This document shows positions 32,450-64,000 of a DNA stretch of 64,000 bases, piece after piece (position 1 is the stretch's first letter; every line of letters begins with the position of its first letter). Both the position numbers and the translations under genes were made by a program. The DNA is from Diplonema papillatum (Eukaryota; Euglenozoa; Diplonemea; Diplonemida; Diplonemidae). The DNA lies in the NCBI GenBank assembly GCA_030068145.1, contig JAPJBO010000857.1, positions 34,538-98,537 on the forward strand. Direction: 5' to 3'. The notes below the pieces were generated by a model that was given only the letters and a program-made list of their open reading frames with translations, searched no databases and was not told the DNA's origin.

Positions 32450-34822
32450 AGGGGGGGGGGTAGAGGGTGCGATTGCCGTGGTAAATCTTGTCCGTTTTAT
32501 TATTTTCGCGATTTTTACATACTTTGAGGCCCTTGCGGGTGTCGTTCGCCCCCAAAATCGGTTCAGATGAGGTTGTCGAGGGCGCGCGCGCCAGAAACTG
32601 ATCAGAATGTCACCCAAAAGTGCGAAAAGAAGGGGTAGCATGTTGCAAAATGGAGGTTTCGGCCACCTCGACAAGATGTCCAAAATTAACCGATTTCTAA
32701 AACCTTTACAAAACGAGTCTCAAATCTGGATGAAAAATAGTGTAGAGAAATTTTTGGAGCATTCCGGGGCACAAATGACCACATCCTGAGTCATTCCTGT
32801 CACAGTCTGACCCTGCTGCCGTCGTTTGTGGCTGCTTTTTGGTGTTTGGATGCCCCTAGACCATACCCGGATCAGCCCGGACCATACCCGGATCAGCCCG
32901 GATCAACCCGCATCACCCCAGACCAACCCGGACTGGGCCCGGTTCAAGGTCAAATGCTGGCGAAACCACCACAGGGAGCACTCCACAACGCCCAAATTTT
33001 GAAATTTATACGAAAAAAGCCACAAGGAAATCATCATGAAAGCTGCGGCAACCGGGCGAAGCGGTTCTTGGAGAAGATTGAGAACAGAGCCAAGTCTAGA
33101 ATTGCTACAAGCGGGTCCCAAATCTGGAGGAAAAACAGACCGGAGAAAACATTTTGAGCATCCCTGGGCACAAAAAACTGCATCTTGAGTCATTCCAGGC
33201 ATAGTCTGACCCTGCTACCGTCTTTTGAGGCTGCTTCCTGGTGTAGATGACCCTGGACCAAACCCGGATCAGCCCGGACCAACCCGGATCACCCCAGACC
33301 AACCCGGACTGGGCCCGGTTCAAGGTCAAATGCTGGCGAAACCCCCAGGGGGCACACCACAACGCCCAAATTTCCGAATTTATACTCGAAAAAAGCTACA
33401 GAAAAACATAATGGAAGCTGCGACAACTGAGGCGAAGCGGTTCTTGCAGAAGATAAAAGAAGTCATCGGGTGTGGCACGTGACCGCGGAAGCAGAAGGTG
33501 CGCCGGGAACCGAGGCAACAAGGTCCCCCGCGTGTAGGAATCCGCCAACTGTCCGTCGGACGGCACCCGCGGGCTCTGGGCAAGGGAGATTCTGGGCCAG
33601 GAATGGTGGATTCTGGACCAGGGAGGGTGAACTCCTGACCAGGGAGGGTGAATCCTGGATCAGGGAGGGTGAATTCTGGACCAGGGAGGGTGGATTCTGG
33701 ACCACAGAGGTGGATTCTGGACCACAGAGGTGGATTCTGGACCACAGAGGTGGATTCTGGACCACAGAGGTGGATTCTGGACCACAGAGGTGGATTCTGG
33801 ACCACAGAGGTGGATTCTGGACCACAGAGGTGGATTCTGGACCACAGAGGTGGATTCTGGACCACAGAGGTGGATTCTGGACCACAGAGGTGGATTCTGG
33901 ACCACAGAGGTGGATTCTGGACCACAGAGGTGGATTCTGGACCACAGAGGTGGATTCTGGACCACAGAGGTGGATTCTGGACCACAGAGGTGGATTCTGG
34001 ACCACAGAGGTGGATTCTGGACCACAGAGGTGGATTCTGGACCACAGAGGTGGATTCTGGACCACAGAGGTGGATTCTGGACCACAGAGGTGGATTCTGG
34101 ACCACAGAGGTGGATTCTGGACCACAGAGGTGGATTCTGGACCACAGAGGTGGATTCTGGACCACAGAGGTGGATTCTGGACCACAGAGGTGGATTCTGG
34201 ACCACAGAGGTGGATTCTGGACCACAGAGGTGGATTCTGGACCACAGAGGTGGATTCTGGACCACAGAGGTGGATTCTGGACCACAGAGGTGGATTCTGG
34301 ACCACAGAGGTGGATTCTGGACCACAGAGGTGGATTCTGGACCACAGAGGTGGATTCTGGACCACAGAGGTGGATTCTGGACCACAGAGGTGGATTCTGG
34401 ACCACAGAGGTGGATTCTGGACCACAGAGGTGGATTCTGGACCACAGAGGTGGATTCTGGACCACAGAGGTGGATTCTGGACCCGGGTGACAGGGATCTG
34501 AGCCGCAGAGGTTGAAATAAGGCCAGAGGGGGTGAATTCTGGACCAAAAAGGCGAATTCCGGGCCATGCATGGCAGTTTCTGGTCGACGAAGGGAAGATT
34601 ATCTCTTTGCCAACACGGACAGGTCCCTCTATTTTTCACAATATTTTCATCATTTCTGCCTTTTTGGGCGAGATTCTGATCGATTCCTGGGTTGAGGACC
34701 CTCAAAAGCCTCGTGAACACATACCTTTAGGGCTCAAAGTACCCGGAGGTGCCTCCGAAGCATGCAAAAATGGCAAAAATAATAAAACGGACAAATTTAC
34801 AATGGGAGTCGCACCCCCTAGG
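32450..34822. mobile_element. 2.4-kb foldback element containing the 20-bp array
   Basis: The left end, from CTAGGGGGGGG plus GGGTGCGATTGCC, and the right end, CTAGGGGGTGCGACTCCC read inward, match for about 200 bp, including TTGTCCGTTTTATTATTTT. Inside are a direct duplication of about 170 bp (32840-33010 and 33230-33400, sharing AACCCGGACTGGGCCCGG and CAAGGTCAAATGCTGGCGAA) and the 20-bp array. No ORF is credible outside the arrays. Confidence 0.65.
33590..34482. repeat. 20-bp minisatellite, 39 perfect units plus degenerate left edge
   Basis: ACCACAGAGGTGGATTCTGG repeats exactly from 33701 to 34480. To the left, diverged units with CAGGGAGGGT replacing CACAGAGGT grade into unique DNA, which marks the older edge. 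Three units make 60 bp, so several frames on both strands stay open and yield spurious repeat proteins of 260-446 residues. Confidence 0.98.
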
Positions 34823-53145: not shown

Positions 53146-53194
53146 GCGTGGTCGTACTTTCGTGAAGGGAGGCACCACGTTAAAACGGGTCCGC

Positions 53195-53360
<166 letters not shown>

Positions 53361-53400
53361 GGCTGGAAGAAGATCAAATTATTAAAATATACAAAACATC

Positions 53401-55212
53401 ATGCCTGCACCTCCACGTGGTGGCCCCGGGCAACGCGGCGACTCTGCTGGGCCGCCGCGGCCGACGCAGGCCAACGACGCGAAAGCACCTGGCACTGGCT
53501 GGGTGCTGGCGGGAAAACGGCGAGGCCAGCTGGCACAGCTCAGGCCAGAGGACTGGCCCGTAGCGGTCGTAACGGCCAACGACATCAGGAAGCCGGAGAC
53601 GACACAGGGCGTAGCCCTGGTCACATGGGCGGACGCCACTGAGTTGGCGAAGAAGAGCCGGAAGGGACGACTGGCCGTGGTCGTCCTCGGGGCCAAAAGG
53701 CGGGAAGGCGAGGGGGTGGAGACGACGGTGGTGACGCGCAGAGGTCCGCGAACTGAAGTCCGCCCGGCCGTCCTGCTGCAGCTTGGCGACGAGCTGGTTG
53801 GGACGCTGCTCCGAAGGACAAGCGCACCCCTGCCGCCCGCGGACGAACACAGGGTGTCCGTGGTAGTCGCGCGCCGGTACGCGACGGTGGAAGGGTGGAC
53901 GGGCTGTGGGGCGGACGCCAGGGCCTGGCTTACGGGCCATTTCGTGGGAGAGGGCGTACCCCGGGAGGACATCAAGTCGCTTACGGGGATCGAGACGCGC
54001 GGCACCCCCGGCCCCACGGCCCAGATCCGCGCACTACTGCGAGTCGCTGGACGCAGCAAGGAGGGCGCCTTGGCGGCTTCGGGGAAAGGGGGCGTCTTCA
54101 CAACGCTGAAAGGGGACGGAAGAGGCGCGCTATGGCTGAGGGACGACCTTACCCTGGACGAAGCGAGGAAAGCCGCTGCGCGCGCGAAGACGAGCCTCAT
54201 CGTCAGTGTGCGCGGCATGGGCGTACTAAAAGGGGAGGGGGAACAGGCCGAGGCGGCTATGAGAGCGTTGCTGGGGACGGCGGCTGCGCAGGAGGAGGAG
54301 CAGCCGGGACAGCCGGGCCAGATCTGGGACGTAGCCGGGTTTCCGCGGACGATCTCGCCGGTGCAGGTGGCAGCGTTTCTCCACGCGGCCGGATGGACGG
54401 GCGTCGAGGTGATCCGCGTGATCCCGAAGCGCAGCAAGCGCCTCGCCGTCGTCCGCGGCCCGGAGCCACCGGCCTGGATTTTCCAGGTCGAGACGACTGG
54501 GGAACTGGTCACCGTGTCGACGGTCAGGGAGAAGGACGAGGCGCAACCGAGATGGGTGCAGACAAAGGGGACGGAAGAGACCCGGACAGACCCGGCCGAA
54601 GACGGAACAGAGCGTCAGGGAATGACCTACGCCAAGGCCGCTTTCATCGGCCTGTACGGAAGGAAGCAGGGCTTGAAGGCCTGGAGTGACGGCAGACCGC
54701 AGACGACCCAAGCGGCGCCAGCAGAAACAGGACAGCAGAGCGGGCCCCCGGGGAACCCCGGCGCCGACATCCCGCAAACCTCGGACGCACCACCGCCGAA
54801 CGCCGGAAAGGGGGGCAAGAAAGGAAAGAAAGGGGGGAAAGCAGGAAAGCACCAGCCGCAGCCAGCCGAACAGGACGCGCAGCGACCCGACGAGGTGAGG
54901 GCAAAGCTCGAGAGGGAGGTGTCCGAGCTGCGCGCCCAGAACGCTGACATGTGTCGGAAGATGGAGGAGCTGGGGACGCTGGTGCAGGCCTTGCGTGCGC
55001 AGCTCCAGGCACGGACAGGCGACCCCCAGAAGACGACGTCACCCTCGCCGAAGCGGCAGTCGCTGGCGGAGCCGGACAAGGTCAAGAAGCGGCCGAGGTC
55101 GCTGACCAAGTCCAAGTCGCGGTCACCGGAGCCCCCGAAGCAGCCACCGTCAAAGGCGACGAGGACCCTGAAGCAGATGGGCTTCGGGAGCACGGCGCCG
55201 GCCCGTAAATGA
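53401..55212 (+). CDS. LINE family B ORF1 protein
   Basis: 603 residues, probably the RNA-binding partner of ORF2. The N-terminus is Pro/Gly/Arg-rich. The middle (about 40-370) has repeated beta-alpha-looking segments such as WPVAVVTANDIRK, HRVSVVVARRYATVEGW and RTISPVQVAAFLHAAGWTG, which may be RRM-like folds as in many LINE ORF1 proteins, though no RNP motif is clear. The segment at about 490-540 (VRAKLEREVSELRAQNADMC) is a coiled coil suited to trimerisation. Basic, Ser/Pro-rich tails follow. It ends AAA TGA. The start was chosen as the first ATG after the CA tract, 42 bp in. ORF2 continues in the same frame after the TGA. Confidence 0.85.
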   Translation: MPAPPRGGPGQRGDSAGPPRPTQANDAKAPGTGWVLAGKRRGQLAQLRPEDWPVAVVTANDIRKPETTQGVALVTWADATELAKKSRKGRLAVVVLGAKRREGEGVETTVVTRRGPRTEVRPAVLLQLGDELVGTLLRRTSAPLPPADEHRVSVVVARRYATVEGWTGCGADARAWLTGHFVGEGVPREDIKSLTGIETRGTPGPTAQIRALLRVAGRSKEGALAASGKGGVFTTLKGDGRGALWLRDDLTLDEARKAAARAKTSLIVSVRGMGVLKGEGEQAEAAMRALLGTAAAQEEEQPGQPGQIWDVAGFPRTISPVQVAAFLHAAGWTGVEVIRVIPKRSKRLAVVRGPEPPAWIFQVETTGELVTVSTVREKDEAQPRWVQTKGTEETRTDPAEDGTERQGMTYAKAAFIGLYGRKQGLKAWSDGRPQTTQAAPAETGQQSGPPGNPGADIPQTSDAPPPNAGKGGKKGKKGGKAGKHQPQPAEQDAQRPDEVRAKLEREVSELRAQNADMCRKMEELGTLVQALRAQLQARTGDPQKTTSPSPKRQSLAEPDKVKKRPRSLTKSKSRSPEPPKQPPSKATRTLKQMGFGSTAPARK

Positions 55213-55347
55213 AGGCAGAGCCCCCTTGGCGGGGCGGGGGAGGAACACGGACATGCCGGCTACGACACGACGGGAAGGAAGCTCGTTGGGGGGGGACCTG
55301 TAACTATCCTCGCCGACGAGCGGTGGGTACGAGCTGCGACCCGCGAG

Positions 55348-58300
55348 ATGCTTGGCCGCGCATGCCCGGTGCCGGGAGACGGGAACTGCCAGTTCTCAGC
55401 CATCGCACAACGGCACGGGACAGTGGATGCAGAGCGACTGCGACAAATGGTAGTTGATGAGATGGGGGCGCGCCCGGCTGACTACCGTCCGTACATGGTG
55501 ATGGAACCGGGGCCGGACAGTCGAGGGCTCACGGTGGCGGAAGAGTTGGCCAAGTGGCAGGCTTACCTGGCGGCCATGCGGAGGAACGCCACGTACGGCG
55601 ATGAGCTGACACTACGGGCAGCGTCGCGAGTGCTGCGCTGCGACATCTGGGTGCTGAACGCGACGAGCCGGGAGGCCCTACGTGGATGCAGACAACCGTC
55701 GCCGACCGCGACCATTGTTCTTACGTACCGGCCGGAGCACTACGACACCGTGATTCTACCGCTGCCGAGCCAGCGCCTGCTGGAGGCGACGACAGGCGAC
55801 ACGGTACCCTTGGCGCGGCTCGCTCTGATTAATGCTGGCCCGGTTGCTGGCACAGACGCACCGACCCACCACCTACCAACCGGCGTGCCCGCCGCTGCGC
55901 GGACCCGGCAACGGAACACGCGCCCCCGCGCGCCCGAACCAAGGTTACCCAGCATCGCCGAGGCGAAGCAGGATCGATCATGGAGCCCGCACGACGACGA
56001 TATAGTGATCGTCACCATAAACGTGACATCCTTGGACACGGAGAAGCTGTTGGTGGTGGCCCTGCTCAAAGCAGATATAGTCGTACTGCAAGAGACCCGG
56101 GTAACCAAGGCAGAAAAGGCGTACATGGGTTCATTTCTCGCGGCGTACGGATGGAACGTGCACTGGGGCGACGACGTAACGATGGTGGAAGGTGGAGACG
56201 GGAGAAGCCAAAGAAGACCTGGTGGAGTGGCAGTGCTAACCCGTCAGCACCTCACAGCGCAACTAGTGGCAGCGGTTGAAGACTCAGAGAAGAGAGTGGT
56301 GGCATCGACGCGCGTTGTGCATGTTGTCGTAGCCCTGGGGGACGGCAGAACAGCATTACACATATTCTCGTTGTACGGGCAGAGCGGGAACAGCGTGCAG
56401 GTGCAGGGGGAAAGGGAGCAGTTGATAACAGAGGTGTTGGGTATAGCGGCAGGCCTGGGGCAAGTGCCGACCCTTGTAGTGGGTGACTTCAATTGTTCGA
56501 CAGAGACCAGTTCAGTACTAGCCGCAGCATGCCGGTCGGGAAGATGGGCAGATGCGGCAGCCGCTTACGCGGTAGGCCAAGGCGAAGAACCACCGTGCAC
56601 GTGCTGGGCGCCGAATGCGACAGGAGGGAGCAGGATAGACTTGTGCCTCGCCAATGCCTGTGCGGCACCAGCCATCAGCAAGGTCTGCACAGTGGAAAGG
56701 AAAAACAGCGAGTTCCACACGCATGCACCAATGTACGTGACGATGCGCCAGCAAGTGTTCCGAGAGCGCCACAGGCGCGCAATACTCCCGACAGCATTTC
56801 CTCGGGCATATCCGTTGCTCAACCTGAGTGAGAAGAGTCTTTTAGAAGTGTTCGCCAACGAGGCAAAAGAGGCCATGACGGGAGCTATGAGTCTGAAACA
56901 GCTATCGCAACACGCAGAAAGCTATCTGCTCATGTTGCACAGGCGCGAGCTCGCATTGCCGTCCAGGGCGTACAAGGGACGCGGGAACCAAGTGGTCAGC
57001 GACTCGCGACTAGCCACCAAATTCCAGCACTCGTCAACAAGGGGTGCCTCCACGAAGCAAACTCGAGCACGAGACGAGCTGTTGGGGCACCTGCGGACAT
57101 TGGTACAAGCAGCCCGGGAGCGACTGAGATCTGACATACCGTATCCGCTTACAAGACGAGAGGAAAAAGCGAGAGAAGCCGCACGGAAGAGGGTAGGAAG
57201 AGGCCACATCCCGGAGGCAGTCGCCAACATCGTGATGTCAGGCGATCTCTCCGAGTTACAAGCGCTTCAAAGCGCCTTGACGAGCCTGGAGGGATCCCAG
57301 AGGGCAGCATTCTCCGCGCTCAGACGGCACAGAAAGGCGCAGTGGACGCATAAGATGCAGGAAGCATGGGCGCATGGAAGGGGCTTAGTGTTCAATTTCA
57401 TCGCCGATAAATATGCCTCGCCGTTGACGTTCCTGCGACGGGACGACGGAACCCTGACGGCGAACGCGGCGGAAATTGACGAGATCTTGAGGGGCGAGAA
57501 GGCGTGGGGTGGAATCTTTCAGCGATACACGACGCGGGAGGAACCGTGCTGGGGGCGGTTTCTGCGGATGTACAGCCCCGTCCTGCCAGACAGGGCCGAA
57601 ATGGAGTGCGAGGCGATAACGGTGGGTGACGTGAAAGCAGCGCTTGCGAAGATGAAGAAGTCAGCCTCAGCTGGGATGCACGGGTGGAGGATCCACGAGC
57701 TGCAACAGCTGCCGAACTCGCTTCTGGAAGGGTTCGCACGAGTACTAAATGAGGTGGAGGAAAGCGGAGAATGGCCGGAAGAACTGATGCACGCTCTCGT
57801 CTCGCTGATACCGAAACCGAAGAGCACAGGAGATCCCTTGTCCCAACGACCGATCTCAGTGGCACCGGTGCTGTACAGGATATGGGCTGCTGTCAGGGCT
57901 AAAGACGCGCAACGCTGGATGGACGAACTGGCTCCAGAGGGGCTCCACGGCTGCCGGCCTAAGCACAGCACGGAAGACCTTTTCTGGCATCTGGCAGCCG
58001 AGATCGAAGAGGCGCACCTCATGGGGCGCCCGCTGTATGGCATCGCGTTCGACTTTAAAAAGTGCTTCGATTCGGTGCCCATCAACGTCACCCTGCAACT
58101 CGCAAAGAAGCTGGGATTCAACCGAAAGGTACTTCGGGCATTAGAAGCCGCATACCGACAAATGCAACGGCATTTCAAGGTAAACGGGACGGTCGGAGGT
58201 GGGTTTATCCCAACAAACGGGATCATGCAGGGCTGCGCAATCAGTGTGATACTGATTGGGCTGTTGATCAGCGTGTGGATGAGGCACGTAGCGCAAGAAG

Positions 58301-61029
58301 GACGTCCACGATCATACGTGGATGACATAACAGCCACGGCCAGAGAAGCAAGTCACCTGCAGACGATAGCGAACAAGACGGTACAATTCGAAGAAATGAC
58401 CGGCTTATGGATTTGCCTAGCGAAATCCCACTCGTTTGGAACGACGTTGCGCCAACCAGCGGTCGAAATCATGAGCTGGCAAGAAGACACTGATGTTTTC
58501 GTCTCGGAAGACCCCCCGCGATTCTACAAACGGACGGACAGCTTCGATTGCCTTGGGGTCATGGTGCACGCACGTGGGCATGGACGCCAGCTGTCGAGCA
58601 GGATCCGACAACGCAGAGAAGGAGCAGTACTAAATTTGCAACGAATAAAAAGAATACCAGTACCGGCAACGGCACGTGAGACGCTGGTTTCAATGACCGC
58701 GTGCGCAAAAATGTACTACGGCATATCGGTCATGCCGTTAGACAACAGGACGTCGAACACCATGCGCCAGGCCGTCATGACAGCCCTATGGACCGGTCCC
58801 AGCAGACGTGCAGTTGAAGTGGTGATGCAGGTGCTTCACCACGGGCACCGGCTGGACCCTTACACTGCCCCGGCTTACATACGGATCCGGACATGGGTGC
58901 GACAAATGCGGAAGTGGCGGCACATCAGGACACTGGCGGGTGTGGCTTGGGCGCACAAAGAGACGTTACCGGATGGTTCTCCGCACAGGTTGATGTGGGA
59001 TGCTCTAAGCCAGGCGGAGTGGGCGTGGACAACCCCTGACACCATCGGGTATACCAATGAGATCGGAGAGCAGGTCGTTTTTAACACGGACGATGCGAAC
59101 GAGAAGCAAACGACAATCATGCTGCACGACTTGCGCCAGGCGCTACGACGCCAACAATTGGCAAAGATGTGCAACAGAAGGGAAGACTTGCGAGGATGTG
59201 CGCACGGGGTGGATGGAAGCGTAACCCGACATCTCCTCGAAGCTCTCGATAATGGATTGACAGGATACCAACAGGGGATGTTACGATCAATAATAGCTGG
59301 GGCCGTGGCAACTACAGGCAGAACGGGGAAAAACGAGACTTGCCCATATTGCAACCAGGACGAAAGGGAAACTGTGGCGCACTTGTGGTGGGAGTGTGAG
59401 GCTTGGAGGGGTATACGGCAGGAGCACGGCATGGGCACCGTGGACAGGACAACATGGCCGAATTGCCTGAGCATGTGCGGAGTCGCACCCATGCACAGAC
59501 ACGGCACGGACCCCGCCCTGCAGCCAGTACCACTCGACCATGGTGAAGCCTGCCAATTTGTAAGCAGGCTACAGCGATACTACCTGGCTGTACTGCGTGC
59601 AAGGCAGATAAGGGATGAGAGAGAGCAGGAGACAAGTCGCCACCATCGACTGACCCAATACCCGTGGGGGTGGAGAACAACGAGTCCAAGGCGGGTCTGC
59701 ATTCCAAAGATTGAGGCCGAAACAATCACGCAGCAGTGGAAGCACGGCGGCGAATTGTGGAACGCCATGCACTGGTGGCTAAACAGACTTCGATGGGCGC
59801 ACGTTGGATCGGAACACGCAGTGACTTTCTTGGAGTTGGCCATAGACTTCGAAGTCACAACGGGCGTGCGGCTGCCGATAGTGGCAAATCGGCGAATCCA
59901 ACCGCCGGCAGCCTCGAAAGCCAAGGCGACGTCGGCCCGAGCCGTACTCCCCCCCAGAGAAACCACCGAGGGCCTATGCATGTACTTCGATGGCGGCTCA
60001 AGGCAGAACGGAACTGCACTGGCGGTGGCTGGGGCCGGAGCAGTCATCTACAAGGATGGGCTGAAGCTGGCGGAGACAACAGTTCCCTTGGGTCGGACCA
60101 CCAACAACGTGGCCGAGTACAACGGCCTGATAGCGGGGATACGACTGCTCGGGGAACAGCCGGGCGACGTTGAAGGGCCGGTAAAAGTCAGGGGCGACTC
60201 ACAAGTTGTAATAGGACCAGTAAACGGGACGGCCATGTGCAAACCCAACTTACGACCGTATTTTCTGCAGGCGAGGGCGAGCATGGCCGACCTGACACCG
60301 CGGTTTGAGTTCAGTCTGGAACACGTACCGCGGAGTAGGAACGTCGATGCGGACGCGTTAAGTAACGCGGCCATGGACAGGGTGCAAGCAGAGACGGGCG
60401 CGCAAGTAGGATTGATACGGGCGCAGTATGAGGAGTACAAGGGCAGTGCACTGGCGAAAGGTCAGTCTTTCCGAGCGGTCACCAGCGCGGTAGCACGAAT
60501 CTGTGGCGTAGCGTGGCACTGTGGGCACGTCTCCAATGTCACCAGCGTCACAGCGCTAGGCGGAGGGGTAATGCTAGGCCTCTCGTGCCGAGCCGAGCTA
60601 GCCCCGCAGACCGAAGCAGTGTTGCAGGAAATGAGTCAGCCGCGCCCTGGCACACACACAGCTGCGACGGCACCCGCGAGCCCATTCGTCAAGGCACATG
60701 AGGCATGGGCAGCGAGCAGGCACCCGGAACACTTTTACAGTACAACATGGAAGGAGGAGGCGGAGTGGAAGGGAAGAGAGCAGGAGAGGGGCGCAAGCAG
60801 CCAGCGATCCCGACCAACAGCAAGGAAAGCGAGGAATGCGACGGCACGATGCGCGAAACATGATGAACCCCGCTGCACCGCGTGTAAGAAGAGGCGATTG
60901 CCCCCAGATACGTGTTGCGACCAGCAGCACATGGGACATGGAGCAGGGAGCCTAAACCAAACGAGGCTGCAGTTTAGATCAGAGCGTGGCCACCACGAGC
61001 AGCCGGCAGGACCATCAGCTGTGACGTGA
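55348..61029 (+). CDS. LINE family B ORF2: OTU protease, endonuclease, reverse transcriptase, RNase H
   Basis: 1,893 residues from the first ATG; the frame is open 135 bp further up to the ORF1 stop. Domains: OTU cysteine protease (D11/C14 in GDGNCQF, H131 in YRPEHYD); APE-like endonuclease (N225 in TINV, E249 in LQETR, D380 and N382 in VGDFNC, GGSRIDL, closing His in FHTHAPM); reverse transcriptase with D902 in FDFKKCFD and D992/D993 in SYVDD; a CCHC finger C1332/C1335/H1345/C1350 in CPYCNQ...HLWWEC; RNase H with D1548 in YFDGGS, E1590 in NVAEYNG, D1617 in RGDSQ and D1667/D1669 in NVDADALSN; and a C-terminal Cys cluster (CAKHDEPRCTACKKR). It nicks target DNA and copies its RNA there. The OTU domain may cleave ubiquitin or process a fused ORF1-ORF2 product. 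All visible catalytic residues are intact. Confidence 0.95.
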   Translation: MLGRACPVPGDGNCQFSAIAQRHGTVDAERLRQMVVDEMGARPADYRPYMVMEPGPDSRGLTVAEELAKWQAYLAAMRRNATYGDELTLRAASRVLRCDIWVLNATSREALRGCRQPSPTATIVLTYRPEHYDTVILPLPSQRLLEATTGDTVPLARLALINAGPVAGTDAPTHHLPTGVPAAARTRQRNTRPRAPEPRLPSIAEAKQDRSWSPHDDDIVIVTINVTSLDTEKLLVVALLKADIVVLQETRVTKAEKAYMGSFLAAYGWNVHWGDDVTMVEGGDGRSQRRPGGVAVLTRQHLTAQLVAAVEDSEKRVVASTRVVHVVVALGDGRTALHIFSLYGQSGNSVQVQGEREQLITEVLGIAAGLGQVPTLVVGDFNCSTETSSVLAAACRSGRWADAAAAYAVGQGEEPPCTCWAPNATGGSRIDLCLANACAAPAISKVCTVERKNSEFHTHAPMYVTMRQQVFRERHRRAILPTAFPRAYPLLNLSEKSLLEVFANEAKEAMTGAMSLKQLSQHAESYLLMLHRRELALPSRAYKGRGNQVVSDSRLATKFQHSSTRGASTKQTRARDELLGHLRTLVQAARERLRSDIPYPLTRREEKAREAARKRVGRGHIPEAVANIVMSGDLSELQALQSALTSLEGSQRAAFSALRRHRKAQWTHKMQEAWAHGRGLVFNFIADKYASPLTFLRRDDGTLTANAAEIDEILRGEKAWGGIFQRYTTREEPCWGRFLRMYSPVLPDRAEMECEAITVGDVKAALAKMKKSASAGMHGWRIHELQQLPNSLLEGFARVLNEVEESGEWPEELMHALVSLIPKPKSTGDPLSQRPISVAPVLYRIWAAVRAKDAQRWMDELAPEGLHGCRPKHSTEDLFWHLAAEIEEAHLMGRPLYGIAFDFKKCFDSVPINVTLQLAKKLGFNRKVLRALEAAYRQMQRHFKVNGTVGGGFIPTNGIMQGCAISVILIGLLISVWMRHVAQEGRPRSYVDDITATAREASHLQTIANKTVQFEEMTGLWICLAKSHSFGTTLRQPAVEIMSWQEDTDVFVSEDPPRFYKRTDSFDCLGVMVHARGHGRQLSSRIRQRREGAVLNLQRIKRIPVPATARETLVSMTACAKMYYGISVMPLDNRTSNTMRQAVMTALWTGPSRRAVEVVMQVLHHGHRLDPYTAPAYIRIRTWVRQMRKWRHIRTLAGVAWAHKETLPDGSPHRLMWDALSQAEWAWTTPDTIGYTNEIGEQVVFNTDDANEKQTTIMLHDLRQALRRQQLAKMCNRREDLRGCAHGVDGSVTRHLLEALDNGLTGYQQGMLRSIIAGAVATTGRTGKNETCPYCNQDERETVAHLWWECEAWRGIRQEHGMGTVDRTTWPNCLSMCGVAPMHRHGTDPALQPVPLDHGEACQFVSRLQRYYLAVLRARQIRDEREQETSRHHRLTQYPWGWRTTSPRRVCIPKIEAETITQQWKHGGELWNAMHWWLNRLRWAHVGSEHAVTFLELAIDFEVTTGVRLPIVANRRIQPPAASKAKATSARAVLPPRETTEGLCMYFDGGSRQNGTALAVAGAGAVIYKDGLKLAETTVPLGRTTNNVAEYNGLIAGIRLLGEQPGDVEGPVKVRGDSQVVIGPVNGTAMCKPNLRPYFLQARASMADLTPRFEFSLEHVPRSRNVDADALSNAAMDRVQAETGAQVGLIRAQYEEYKGSALAKGQSFRAVTSAVARICGVAWHCGHVSNVTSVTALGGGVMLGLSCRAELAPQTEAVLQEMSQPRPGTHTAATAPASPFVKAHEAWAASRHPEHFYSTTWKEEAEWKGREQERGASSQRSRPTARKARNATARCAKHDEPRCTACKKRRLPPDTCCDQQHMGHGAGSLNQTRLQFRSERGHHEQPAGPSAVT

Positions 61030-61086: not shown

Positions 61087-61145
<59 letters not shown>
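61087..61145. repeat. (CA)n tail of LINE family B
   Basis: About 29 CA units after GAAATTGAATTCC, directly followed by the truncated family-A copy starting GGACGGTTGT. Confidence 0.98.

Positions 61146-61783: not shown

Positions 61784-61796
<13 letters not shown>

Positions 61797-61825
<29 letters not shown>
61797..61825. repeat. (CA)n tail of family A copy 2
   Basis: About 14 CA units, directly followed by GGGGGGAAAACC, the start of the family-C element. Confidence 0.97.
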
Positions 61826-61869: not shown

Positions 61870-63096
61870 ATGAACCTCCACGCGGTCCCCCTGGGGCCCG
61901 AGGGAATACCCTCGGGCAGCGAAAGGTTCGAAGCCGAAGTGCGTGTGGTGCACCTACCCGAAACCCGTGCATACACTCTGCGTCTTGAGACGTTGAAGGG
62001 GCGGGTAGGTGCGTACGAGCGCCTGGTCGAGCAGCTTGGGTGGGCTGGGGCCAGAGTGCGGATCAAGAAGGGAGTCGCGCACATCGAGGCGACGGAGCCA
62101 CCACCAGTTGCCAAGGTGCGCGTTGGCGAGGAGGAAGGCGAAATCGTCGACGTCGAGGCGCGCGACCGGGCCCGGCAAGAGGCGCACCGACAGGAGCGCA
62201 TCCAGCGAACCCGCCAAGAGCTGGACAGCCTCGCCGCTGCAGGACCACCGAAACGCCTGCCGGACAACGGGGCCCCCAGGGGACCCACGTACTCCAAGCC
62301 CGAGTTCCTCGCCGAGTTCGGGAAGAAGAAGGGGGAAGACGAGTGGCGCTGGGCGCTCAAAGCGCATGAAGAAGTGCGGAAGAGGCAGCTGACGAGACTG
62401 CGGGAGCAGCTGAAGGAGCTGTCCCCGACGGACGACGCGGAGATGCGAGAAGAGAGGCGCGAGCAGGGGAACCAGGACGAGACGGCAGCGGCCTGGGAAG
62501 CCTGGGCGCAGCAGCAGAGCAGGCAGCGAGAGGCCTGGCAGAAGGAGCGAACTGCCGCGCGAGAGGCTTGGGAGGGCGCGTTCGAAAAGCGCTTCCGAAG
62601 CTGGGCTGACGCCCAGACGCAGATAGCCACCAAGCGCGAAGACAACGCCTACACGCGCCAGATAGGGTGGATGGCGGAGACGGAGCAGAAGCTGGACCGT
62701 ATTACGCAGGAGATGTGCGCCAGAATCGACTCAGCGCTTGGGAGAATTGCACAGGTCGCACAGCAATCTGCCGCCGCAGGCGTGCCCGCGCGGACAGACG
62801 AGCCCGTACCTGCAATCCAACCGACTCCACCCCCTGCCGAGCCGCCGGTACCTTTAGCCGAAAACGCCGCGCAGGAGCCCCTCCCGGCCCAGCCCCTCAC
62901 CACAGCTTCCAAGAAAGGGAAGAAAGCTAAGAAGGAGGCTGACGAAAAGGAGCTGGCCGAGCAGTTGAAGCAGCTCAACGAAGCTACAAAGAGACCGGTC
63001 GCCGGAAAGGCGAAGGGCGGGAAAGGCGGGGGTAAGCAGCAGCTCCTGACTGACATGGTGTCAACCAACCGCTACAGCCCCATCGATAAAAAGTAG
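61870..63096 (+). CDS. LINE family C ORF1 protein
   Basis: 408 residues. A beta-rich N-terminal part (VRVVHLPETRAYTLRLETLK) precedes a very long charged helical region (about 100-310) rich in Arg, Glu, Gln and Trp (AAAWEAWAQQQSRQREAWQK), a probable coiled coil. A Pro-rich linker and a Lys/Gly-rich tail (KKGKKAKKEADEKELAEQ) follow. It has almost no similarity to family B ORF1, but a like arrangement: fold, coiled coil, basic tail. The first ATG after the CA tract was chosen as the start; an ATG at 61753 lies in the upstream family-A 3' UTR and would read through the CA repeat. It ends AAG TAG GGG. Confidence 0.82.
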   Translation: MNLHAVPLGPEGIPSGSERFEAEVRVVHLPETRAYTLRLETLKGRVGAYERLVEQLGWAGARVRIKKGVAHIEATEPPPVAKVRVGEEEGEIVDVEARDRARQEAHRQERIQRTRQELDSLAAAGPPKRLPDNGAPRGPTYSKPEFLAEFGKKKGEDEWRWALKAHEEVRKRQLTRLREQLKELSPTDDAEMREERREQGNQDETAAAWEAWAQQQSRQREAWQKERTAAREAWEGAFEKRFRSWADAQTQIATKREDNAYTRQIGWMAETEQKLDRITQEMCARIDSALGRIAQVAQQSAAAGVPARTDEPVPAIQPTPPPAEPPVPLAENAAQEPLPAQPLTTASKKGKKAKKEADEKELAEQLKQLNEATKRPVAGKAKGGKGGGKQQLLTDMVSTNRYSPIDKK

Positions 63097-64000
63097 GGGG
63101 CTGGGCGTGCCGGACAAGAACTGACACCAAGCAAGGAAAACGTGTCAACTGGCGCTGTCCGGTGCGCCAACCCTACTACTGGCAAGCGAAATCGACGAGG
63201 GGAGGAAGTCAAGAGTGTAAACCAGTCAACCGCCGTGAATCAACCGACGCCAGCTGAAAGCGGCGACACGGAACTCGACAGGGCGGCTGCGATCTTGCGC
63301 GCGAAGCGGATACCGGTTGAGAAAGATGGTAACTGCCAATTTGCCGCGCTGCTGCGAAGTAGTAAGCTGAGTCTTTCGGCTACTTCCCTAAGGCAGAAGG
63401 TAACCTGGCAGCTGCGACACCACCCGCCTTCGGCGTTCCTCCCTACTGATTCGTCTCTATCTGAGTATCTTTCCACCGTAGCGCGGGACGGACACTACGG
63501 TGACCACCTCACGTTGCAAGCCGCAGCAGAAGTGCTGAAGGCAACTGTGTGGGTACTATCAACAACGAATTTGGCGCACCTCAGGTGCGAAGGAAGAGCT
63601 GGTAATTCGTCACGCATCATCACCGTGACGTACCGGCCGCAGCACTATGACGCGTTGCACGTACCGCATGAAACTCTGCAGCTGCTGTCGACCCTCGGCC
63701 CCGAGGTGTCACAGCTTCCCCTGAGTGAGATAGCAGCAGACAGTAAACCCAGACTCTCAGCCCGGAATACGATAGCGCCCCCTGGTCGCACAATAGTGCT
63801 AGCAACGGCAAACGTGGGTTCCATAAATGCGAGAAGTCGGACAGTGGCGACCCTCCCGGCGGACATCGTCGCTCTGCAAGAGACCAGGGCGGGCCCAGAG
63901 ACAAAAAGGACATGCGGGCTGTTTCTTGCGGCATACGGATGGGACTGTCACTGGGGCGAAGACGTGCCTGTTGTTGTGGGTGCGAACGGTATAGGACAAC
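63097..64000 (+). CDS. LINE family C ORF2, N-terminal part with no in-frame ATG
   Basis: The frame of ORF1 continues after its TAG with no further stop to the window end (301 codons). After a linker of 76 codons comes an OTU domain: KDGNCQFAALL (Asp codon 63325, Cys codon 63334), HYGDHLTLQAAAEVLKATVW and TYRPQHYDAL (His codon 63643). The endonuclease start follows: ATANVGSINAR, ADIVALQETRAG and LFLAAYGWDCHWGED, matching family B residue for residue at key places. There is no ATG in this frame anywhere in the visible part, so it cannot start independently at AUG here. Readthrough of the TAG, or a non-AUG start, is needed. RT and RNase H should lie beyond base 64000. Confidence 0.9.

Follow-up and report, generated by a model that had tools for sequence, protein, structure and literature searches.

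It has long been asked how a LINE obtains the product of its second open reading frame (ORF) from a single RNA. In the available portions of the published accounts, the couplings put forward for LINEs are reinitiation and proposals of frameshifting or bypass (PMC5972666, PMC5009743); for human L1 constructs, ribosomes have been reported to read through premature stops (PMC4176336). Retroviruses and many RNA viruses are known to use readthrough. As set out in the part of the source available to us, type III readthrough generally combines a UAG with some structure on its 3' side and with either a G or a purine-rich octanucleotide next to it; structures at readthrough sites usually start about 8 nt past the stop (PMC3542737). 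OTU domains have been placed in Ginger1 and Helitron/Helentron transposons in the accessible parts of two further reports (PMC2836005, PMC4067079). In a search of the open-access literature, programmed readthrough between ORF1 and ORF2 was not encountered for any LINE.

We analyzed a stretch of 64,000 nucleotides from the genome of Diplonema papillatum, here called the window. Its end is also the end of the contig; a LINE of the family that we call C is truncated there, and the remainder of the element was read from other contigs. The protein-coding features of this element in the window are as follows.
61870 to 63096, plus strand: family-C ORF1, with ATG at 61870 and 408 codons followed by TAG at 63094-63096
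63094 to 63096, plus strand: UAG stop, putatively read through; TAG in 158/158 copies of families C, D, G, H and I
63244 to 63267, plus strand: block encoding PTPAESGD, its nucleotides near-identical in C, D, G and H, with an in-frame ACG
63325 to 63570, plus strand: OTU-like cysteine protease domain of ORF2 (Pfam PF02338, E 7.9e-6, 26.8 bits, cut-off 23.3)
63802 to 64000, plus strand: start of an AP-like endonuclease domain (PF03372, E 1e-13 over the full copy L010; the window's own stub is below the cut-off)

A preliminary description of the window had read the end of ORF1 as AAG TAG GGG, followed in the same frame from 63097 by 301 codons that are open to the window end and lack an ATG, and had placed an OTU domain and the start of an endonuclease in that frame. 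Rereading gave the same junction and the same open frame, and Pfam recovered both domains, the OTU (PF02338) in the window itself and the endonuclease (PF03372) over the cut-off in a full copy. A full family-C ORF2 contains OTU (23.6 bits, cut-off 23.3), endonuclease, RT and RNase-H-like domains; a Pfam search of family-C ORF1 returned nothing over the cut-off. No in-frame stop was observed in the 408 ORF1 and 1945 ORF2 codons of this family, compared with 95 and 49 in the other two ORF2 frames. In all seven copies fetched far enough, ORF2 is 1945 codons long and its first in-frame ATG stands at codon 314, which places the first Met within the endonuclease domain (codons 236-449), the OTU domain occupying codons 77-158. 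Since 43 of the 1945 codons encode Met, an even spread would place about 6.9 of them before codon 314, and none was observed there (P ~0.0009 on that assumption); chance is therefore a poor explanation for the missing ATG in family C.

Close to the ORF1 stop, several families carry a short motif (QSTLVGFM, QQTLKGML or KKITDYMK, e.g., window positions 63037-63060 and about 520-543 of L048) that was found in neither O nor R and that we take to be PIP-box-like. The end of the family-O ORF1 (L058, 1-725) gave a weak Tudor-like match (PF00567, E 0.066) below the cut-off.

Related families were collected by genome searches with OTU-endonuclease proteins, the best 121-150 candidates per search being scored, and membership among LINEs was taken from PF03372 (endonuclease) and PF00078 (RT) over the cut-off in one ORF. 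The window holds a second element, of family B, upstream of the family-C element.
53401 to 55212, plus strand: family-B ORF1, ending in TGA at 55210-55212
55213 to 61029, plus strand: family-B ORF2 in the frame of ORF1, with OTU, endonuclease, RT and RNase-H-like domains by Pfam and 0 in-frame stops in 1938 codons
55282 to 55296, plus strand: LVGGG motif between the UGA and the OTU domain, a candidate OTU cleavage site; [L/M]xGG stands here in B, P, E, F, J, K, M, N, O and R

The best solved-structure match of the family-B RT was LINE-1 ORF2p. A search for relatives of this RT outside the genome gave 2 pattern stretches in viral_contigs and 6 in genome_contigs, none of which was confirmed by tblastn; because no relatives were confirmed elsewhere, all family evidence comes from one genome. 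Searches for psbA and for light-harvesting proteins gave no match. The LINEs lie head to tail in CA microsatellites (window positions ~61791-61825, 61090-61145 and 53190-53368). The 5' flank is a CA repeat in 14/14 readable family-C loci, not all of them distinct copies, and at seven full family-C 3' ends ORF2 stops shortly before a CA repeat, the element running into the CA repeats. From these flanks, the LINEs look target-specific. Elsewhere in the window, positions 33463-34635 are repetitive and open in several frames on both strands, with a short peptide repeat. Comparison of the family-P sequence P1 (L052/L068) with window positions 55213-56560 revealed a B-like OTU region joined to a different endonuclease, and a J-like 5' end (L060) precedes a B-like endonuclease; modules seem, from their sequences, to have been swapped between families.

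In each family representative read, ORF2 follows the C-terminal part of ORF1 in the same frame, with a single in-frame stop between them. The stop and its context fall into three groups. UAG followed by G (GGG, GGA, GTC or GTT) was found in C, D, G, H and I, UGA-AGG in B, P (two loci), E and F, and UGA-CUC or UGA-CUG in J (two loci), K, M, N, O and R. The CU after UGA is present in 6/6 of the last group; identity to B over the OTU region is only about 33% for its members O and R. It is conceivable in principle that the host decodes UAG and UGA as sense, so that no stop exists, and both codons are indeed found at junctions. Neither occurs, however, within the 408 + 1945 codons of family C or the 1938 codons of the family-B ORF2, the window's C-type 3' end closes with TAG, and the family-B ORF2 closes with TGA; a reassigned code, rejected for the lack of internal UAG or UGA, is scarcely credible.

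The preliminary description had proposed that ORF2 is made as an ORF1-ORF2 fusion by readthrough of the TAG, or else from a non-AUG start, and had called for a survey of other copies. When the genome was searched with patterns that left the stop codon free, TAG was kept in 100/100 copies of C and D and in 58/58 copies of G/H/I; such patterns need exact flanks, so that young copies were counted and copies decayed around the stop fall outside the count. TAG also stood at the junction in 46/46 family-C loci, several of which are repeats of one copy. A search allowing two mismatches was mostly noise (866 matches versus 1067 in the control) and was kept out of the counts. Judged from the copies compared, decay does not account for the junction stop. 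In L047, the first D copy read, ORF1 is damaged and contains four earlier in-frame stops; three further D copies (L079-L081) have no earlier in-frame stops in the stretch read. Earlier in-frame stops were also met in a P locus (two, L053) and in L074 (one), both of which have a different ORF1 end. Locus L062, of the I type, keeps the UAG context but was excluded because its OTU catalytic stretch is missing. Eight additional loci, mostly near-duplicates of P, K and J, were read, and 7/8 fit the pattern. ORF1 and ORF2 in different frames, which the preliminary description had named as evidence against readthrough, were encountered once, in an R copy (L077) whose shift lies in or near a CAT repeat.

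Were the stop read through, the linker between it and the OTU domain would have to be translated. No in-frame stop was observed in the 406 linker codons of 13 families (N, I and duplicate loci left out), and the other frames contain 8 and 11. All 13 linkers were open in 0.04% of Markov resamples, and with one family per lineage the corresponding value was 0.3% (P 0.003). Several stops in the linker, the second observation that was to speak against readthrough, were thus absent from all 13 families, and the survey as a whole bore out a single retained in-frame junction stop followed by linkers without further stops. Substitutions were counted by codon position in place of dN/dS. Six sister pairs gave 38, 38 and 91 (91/167 at third positions; p 1.6e-8), and their indels, of 18, 27, 3, 39, 18 and 6 nt, were multiples of three in 6/6 cases, some sitting in triplet repeats, which favor multiples of three. 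The signal is weaker over the first 60 nt after the stop (12/12/21; p 0.043) and from the stop to the conserved ACG of the UAG clade (17/17/27; p 0.049), and there is no third-position signal between the UGA and [L/M]xGG (4/6/3). From [L/M]xGG to the OTU domain, the counts were 25/27/79 over six comparisons, J being used twice; the O-R alignment 3' of the motif contains two 2-nt gaps. These counts support translation of the linker as a whole, and less so that of its first codons.

The RNA downstream of 63097, where the preliminary description had suggested looking for a stimulatory structure, was then considered, and a structure was predicted in C, D, G and H. In the family-C element of the window it comprises the following elements.
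63097 to 63100, plus strand: 5' strand (GGGG) of an outer 4-bp helix, partner 63171-63174
63104 to 63113, plus strand: 5' arm of the main stem, 10 bp (13 bp in C), from nt +8 after the UAG
63122 to 63147, plus strand: apical hairpin UGACAC...GUGUCA in C, from MFE folds
63159 to 63168, plus strand: 3' arm of the main stem, from folds and alignment
63171 to 63174, plus strand: 3' strand of the outer helix, from folds and alignment

The common fold of the four families opens with a 4-bp helix at nt +1; after a bulge of 3 nt, a 10-bp stem begins at +8 and closes a loop of 45 to 78 nt; in the single-sequence fold of H the outer helix is shifted. The counterparts of 63122-63147 in D, G and H are hairpins of partly or wholly different sequence, C/D and G/H being unalignable there. 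On the alignment, which holds four families but effectively two lineage pairs, 55/56 pair cells are standard, compared with 35-50% for slid partners. Three pairs are changed on both sides, and the outer helix has both-side changes in D and G and one mismatch in H. Most measures were reached by 5/500 shuffles, and the number of doubly changed pairs by 130/500. The alignment folds at -27.2 kcal/mol, against a mean of -5.9 for column shuffles, none of which (0/500) was as low (z -8.6). Because about 41/500 column shuffles match or exceed the covariation term of -1.62, the weight of the structure lies in the shared pairing more than in covariation. Single-sequence z-scores over 130 nt ranged from -2.1 (C) to -5.3 (H) in the UAG clade, and no unusual local folding was detected over the same length in the UGA families B, P, E, F, J, K, M, N, O and R (z -1.9 to +1.1). 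An Rfam scan of 62900-63500 gave no match up to E 5. By these predictions, a hairpin after the UAG is conserved in C, D, G and H, with some compensated pairs. A general pseudoknot was set aside as unsupported. With regard to a compact pseudoknot of the gammaretroviral type, an 8-nt match between loop and downstream sequence is present in C and D; such matches occur in about the number expected by chance, and this one is absent from G/H. CAT-type repeats have expanded within the hairpin loop (H and I) or the linker (R), with in-frame His or Ser runs (L051, L059, L061 and L063).

The structure also bears on splicing, which might take the stop out of a fraction of transcripts. Inspection by eye places a GT across the stop in C, D, E, P, M and N and immediately upstream of it in B and J, but none overlaps or directly precedes it in F, G, H, I, K, O and R, and the last 20 ORF1 codons hold no GT common to C and G/H. 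Moreover, splicing leaves the RNA structure unexplained. Splicing over the stop was rejected for want of a GT common to all families, and we regard it as very improbable.

Two further explanations give ORF2 a start codon of its own, and the distribution of ATG codons bears on both. Over the first 920-940 nt of ORF2, in-frame ATGs number 0 in C, D and G, 1 in H, 6 in E, 8 in F and 7 in B, and out-of-frame ATGs are found in all seven. The absence of ATG from the UAG clade is not absolute, the one of H standing at codon 237, 3' of the OTU domain. The earlier proposal that ORF2 cannot begin at an ATG stands for C, D and G, in which such a start is impossible before the endonuclease, and does not extend to E, F, J, K, O and R, in which it is possible. 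In these six families, termination followed by reinitiation at a downstream AUG, as in SART1, would be helped by an AUG 12 nt past the UGA (E and F) or at the MxGG motif (J, K, O and R), and the strong coding signal begins at [L/M]xGG. SART1 is reported to require a downstream structure for reinitiation, so that a hairpin could serve a coupling other than readthrough (PMC5972666). The motif opens with AUG in six families (E, F, J, K, O and R); at that codon B and P have CTC, and M and N have CTG. Because these four encode Leu, the Met of the motif is not conserved as an initiator. The families C, D and G, moreover, have no in-frame AUG over about 920-940 nt, though out-of-frame AUGs are present. 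Reinitiation is accordingly an unlikely route even for the six families that would allow it.

Initiation at a non-AUG codon, either the conserved ACG of the UAG clade or the CUG of M and N, with the hairpin aiding re-start or ribosome landing, deserves somewhat more credit and is still improbable. The ACG stands in frame 26 codons before the OTU Asp-Gly-Asn-Cys, at the same distance in C, D, G, H and I, within a block of near-invariant nucleotides; among CTG, GTG, TTG and ACG codons, it alone is shared at a fixed OTU distance in the UAG families. In M and N, the CUG is flanked by A at -3 and by G at +4. The context of the ACG, however, is poor in all five families, with a pyrimidine at -3 and C at +4, and non-AUG initiation leaves unexplained both the open, in-phase frame back to the ORF1 stop and the families B and P, whose motif codon is CTC. 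Since the motif starts with CTC or CTG in B, P, M and N, conserved coding in these families begins 5' of any in-frame ATG.

The motif itself was found between the stop and the OTU domain in 10/10 UGA families read, with invariant glycines, starting 32-37 residues N-terminal of the OTU catalytic motif; four of these families (B, P, M and N) have strict LxGG, the other six (E, F, J, K, O and R) have MxGG, and the motif is missing from C, D, G and H. The catalytic motifs DG[N/A]C and HYD are present in all 14 sequences compared, O and R having DGAC. The C-terminus of ubiquitin is LRGG. By analogy, this suggests that in the UGA families the OTU may free ORF2 from a readthrough fusion by cutting at [L/M]xGG; a UAG-clade fusion may stay whole or be cut elsewhere. 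Families E and F (L048 and L049) have two tandem OTU domains, the second resembling the OTU of C, D, G and H, and the sequences suggest that the UAG clade lost the first.

We propose that ORF1 and ORF2 constitute one reading frame interrupted by a single programmed stop. The majority of ribosomes would terminate there and yield ORF1 protein alone, and a minority would insert an amino acid and continue into an ORF1-ORF2 fusion with OTU protease, endonuclease, RT and RNase H, in the manner of Gag-Pol. The signal would be UAG-G with a conserved hairpin, its main stem starting 8 nt downstream, in the UAG clade (type III-like), and UGA-CUN in J, K, M, N, O and R (type II-like); B, P, E and F have UGA-AGG at the stop. 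The sequences show the continuous frame, the retained stop, the lack of ATG, the open linkers and a shared structure; that readthrough occurs, its rate and the ORF1:ORF2 dose ratio that it would set are what we infer. Stop retention, open in-phase linkers and the structure in C, D, G and H lend support to the fusion first proposed from the window, although immediately 3' of the stop the coding signal is weak. In the UAG clade, to which the window's own element belongs, programmed readthrough yielding the fusion is in our judgment probable. For the UGA-CUN families the balance leans gently toward it, and for E and F it is a tentative assignment that falls a little short of even. More speculative still is the view that the whole LINE superfamily is retrovirus-like, with a low-dose readthrough fusion cut by the OTU at a ubiquitin-like [L/M]xGG tail and a swap of signal from UGA-CUN to UAG-G plus structure, the architecture being kept. 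Such stop-signal switching within one superfamily, if true, would show the evolution of recoding signals. The readthrough claim can be tested directly, given a compact signal, copies that are nearly identical and several families that have diverged.

These junctions can be set beside the recoding systems described so far. The type I hexanucleotide (CARYYA of UAG-CARYYA) is absent after the stop in the families read. J, K, M, N, O and R share UGA-CU with type II (UGA followed by CUA or CGG), but have C or G at the third position and unremarkable local folding, so that they depart from the type II definition, as do the four UGA-AGG families. SART1, as described in the available part of its account, is likewise a LINE in which translation of ORF2 is coupled to that of ORF1 and an RNA structure lies downstream, its signal being the stop-start UAAUG (PMC5972666). 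Unlike SART1, the linkers of C, D, G, H and I have no in-frame AUG, and no SART1-like AUG overlaps or adjoins a stop in the ORF2 frame; in B and F an AUG overlaps the UGA in another frame. In human L1, low-level readthrough of premature ORF2 stops has been proposed to give full-length protein, the accessible part of that report dealing with mutations in incompetent copies (PMC4176336), whereas the stop here is the normal, conserved junction. For processing, the nearest likeness is to viral protease/deubiquitinases that process polyproteins. In the available portion of the source, the OTU of EAV has the putative site RLIGG and coronavirus enzymes, of another fold, cut at LXGG, and the tymovirus and arterivirus OTU protease/deubiquitinases resemble the present arrangement of an OTU domain near a di-Gly motif (PMC5695851). 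Unlike the viral sites, P4 would be Met in six families here, the UAG clade is without the motif, and the cleavage site is a candidate. The closest match is to type III readthrough, as in gammaretrovirus gag-pol and the luteovirus coat extension. The UAG clade differs in that it belongs to a non-LTR retrotransposon and in that its predicted structure is an extended hairpin, with no pseudoknot above chance complementarity. It shares UAG-G and a 3' structure at about +8, and the purine-rich bases after the TAG had been likened to known leaky stops at the outset, from the window alone. As far as the available text of the type III description goes, the predicted junction of the UAG clade fits it, and gammaretroviral pol lies in frame with a gag-like ORF just as ORF2 lies in frame with ORF1 (PMC3542737).
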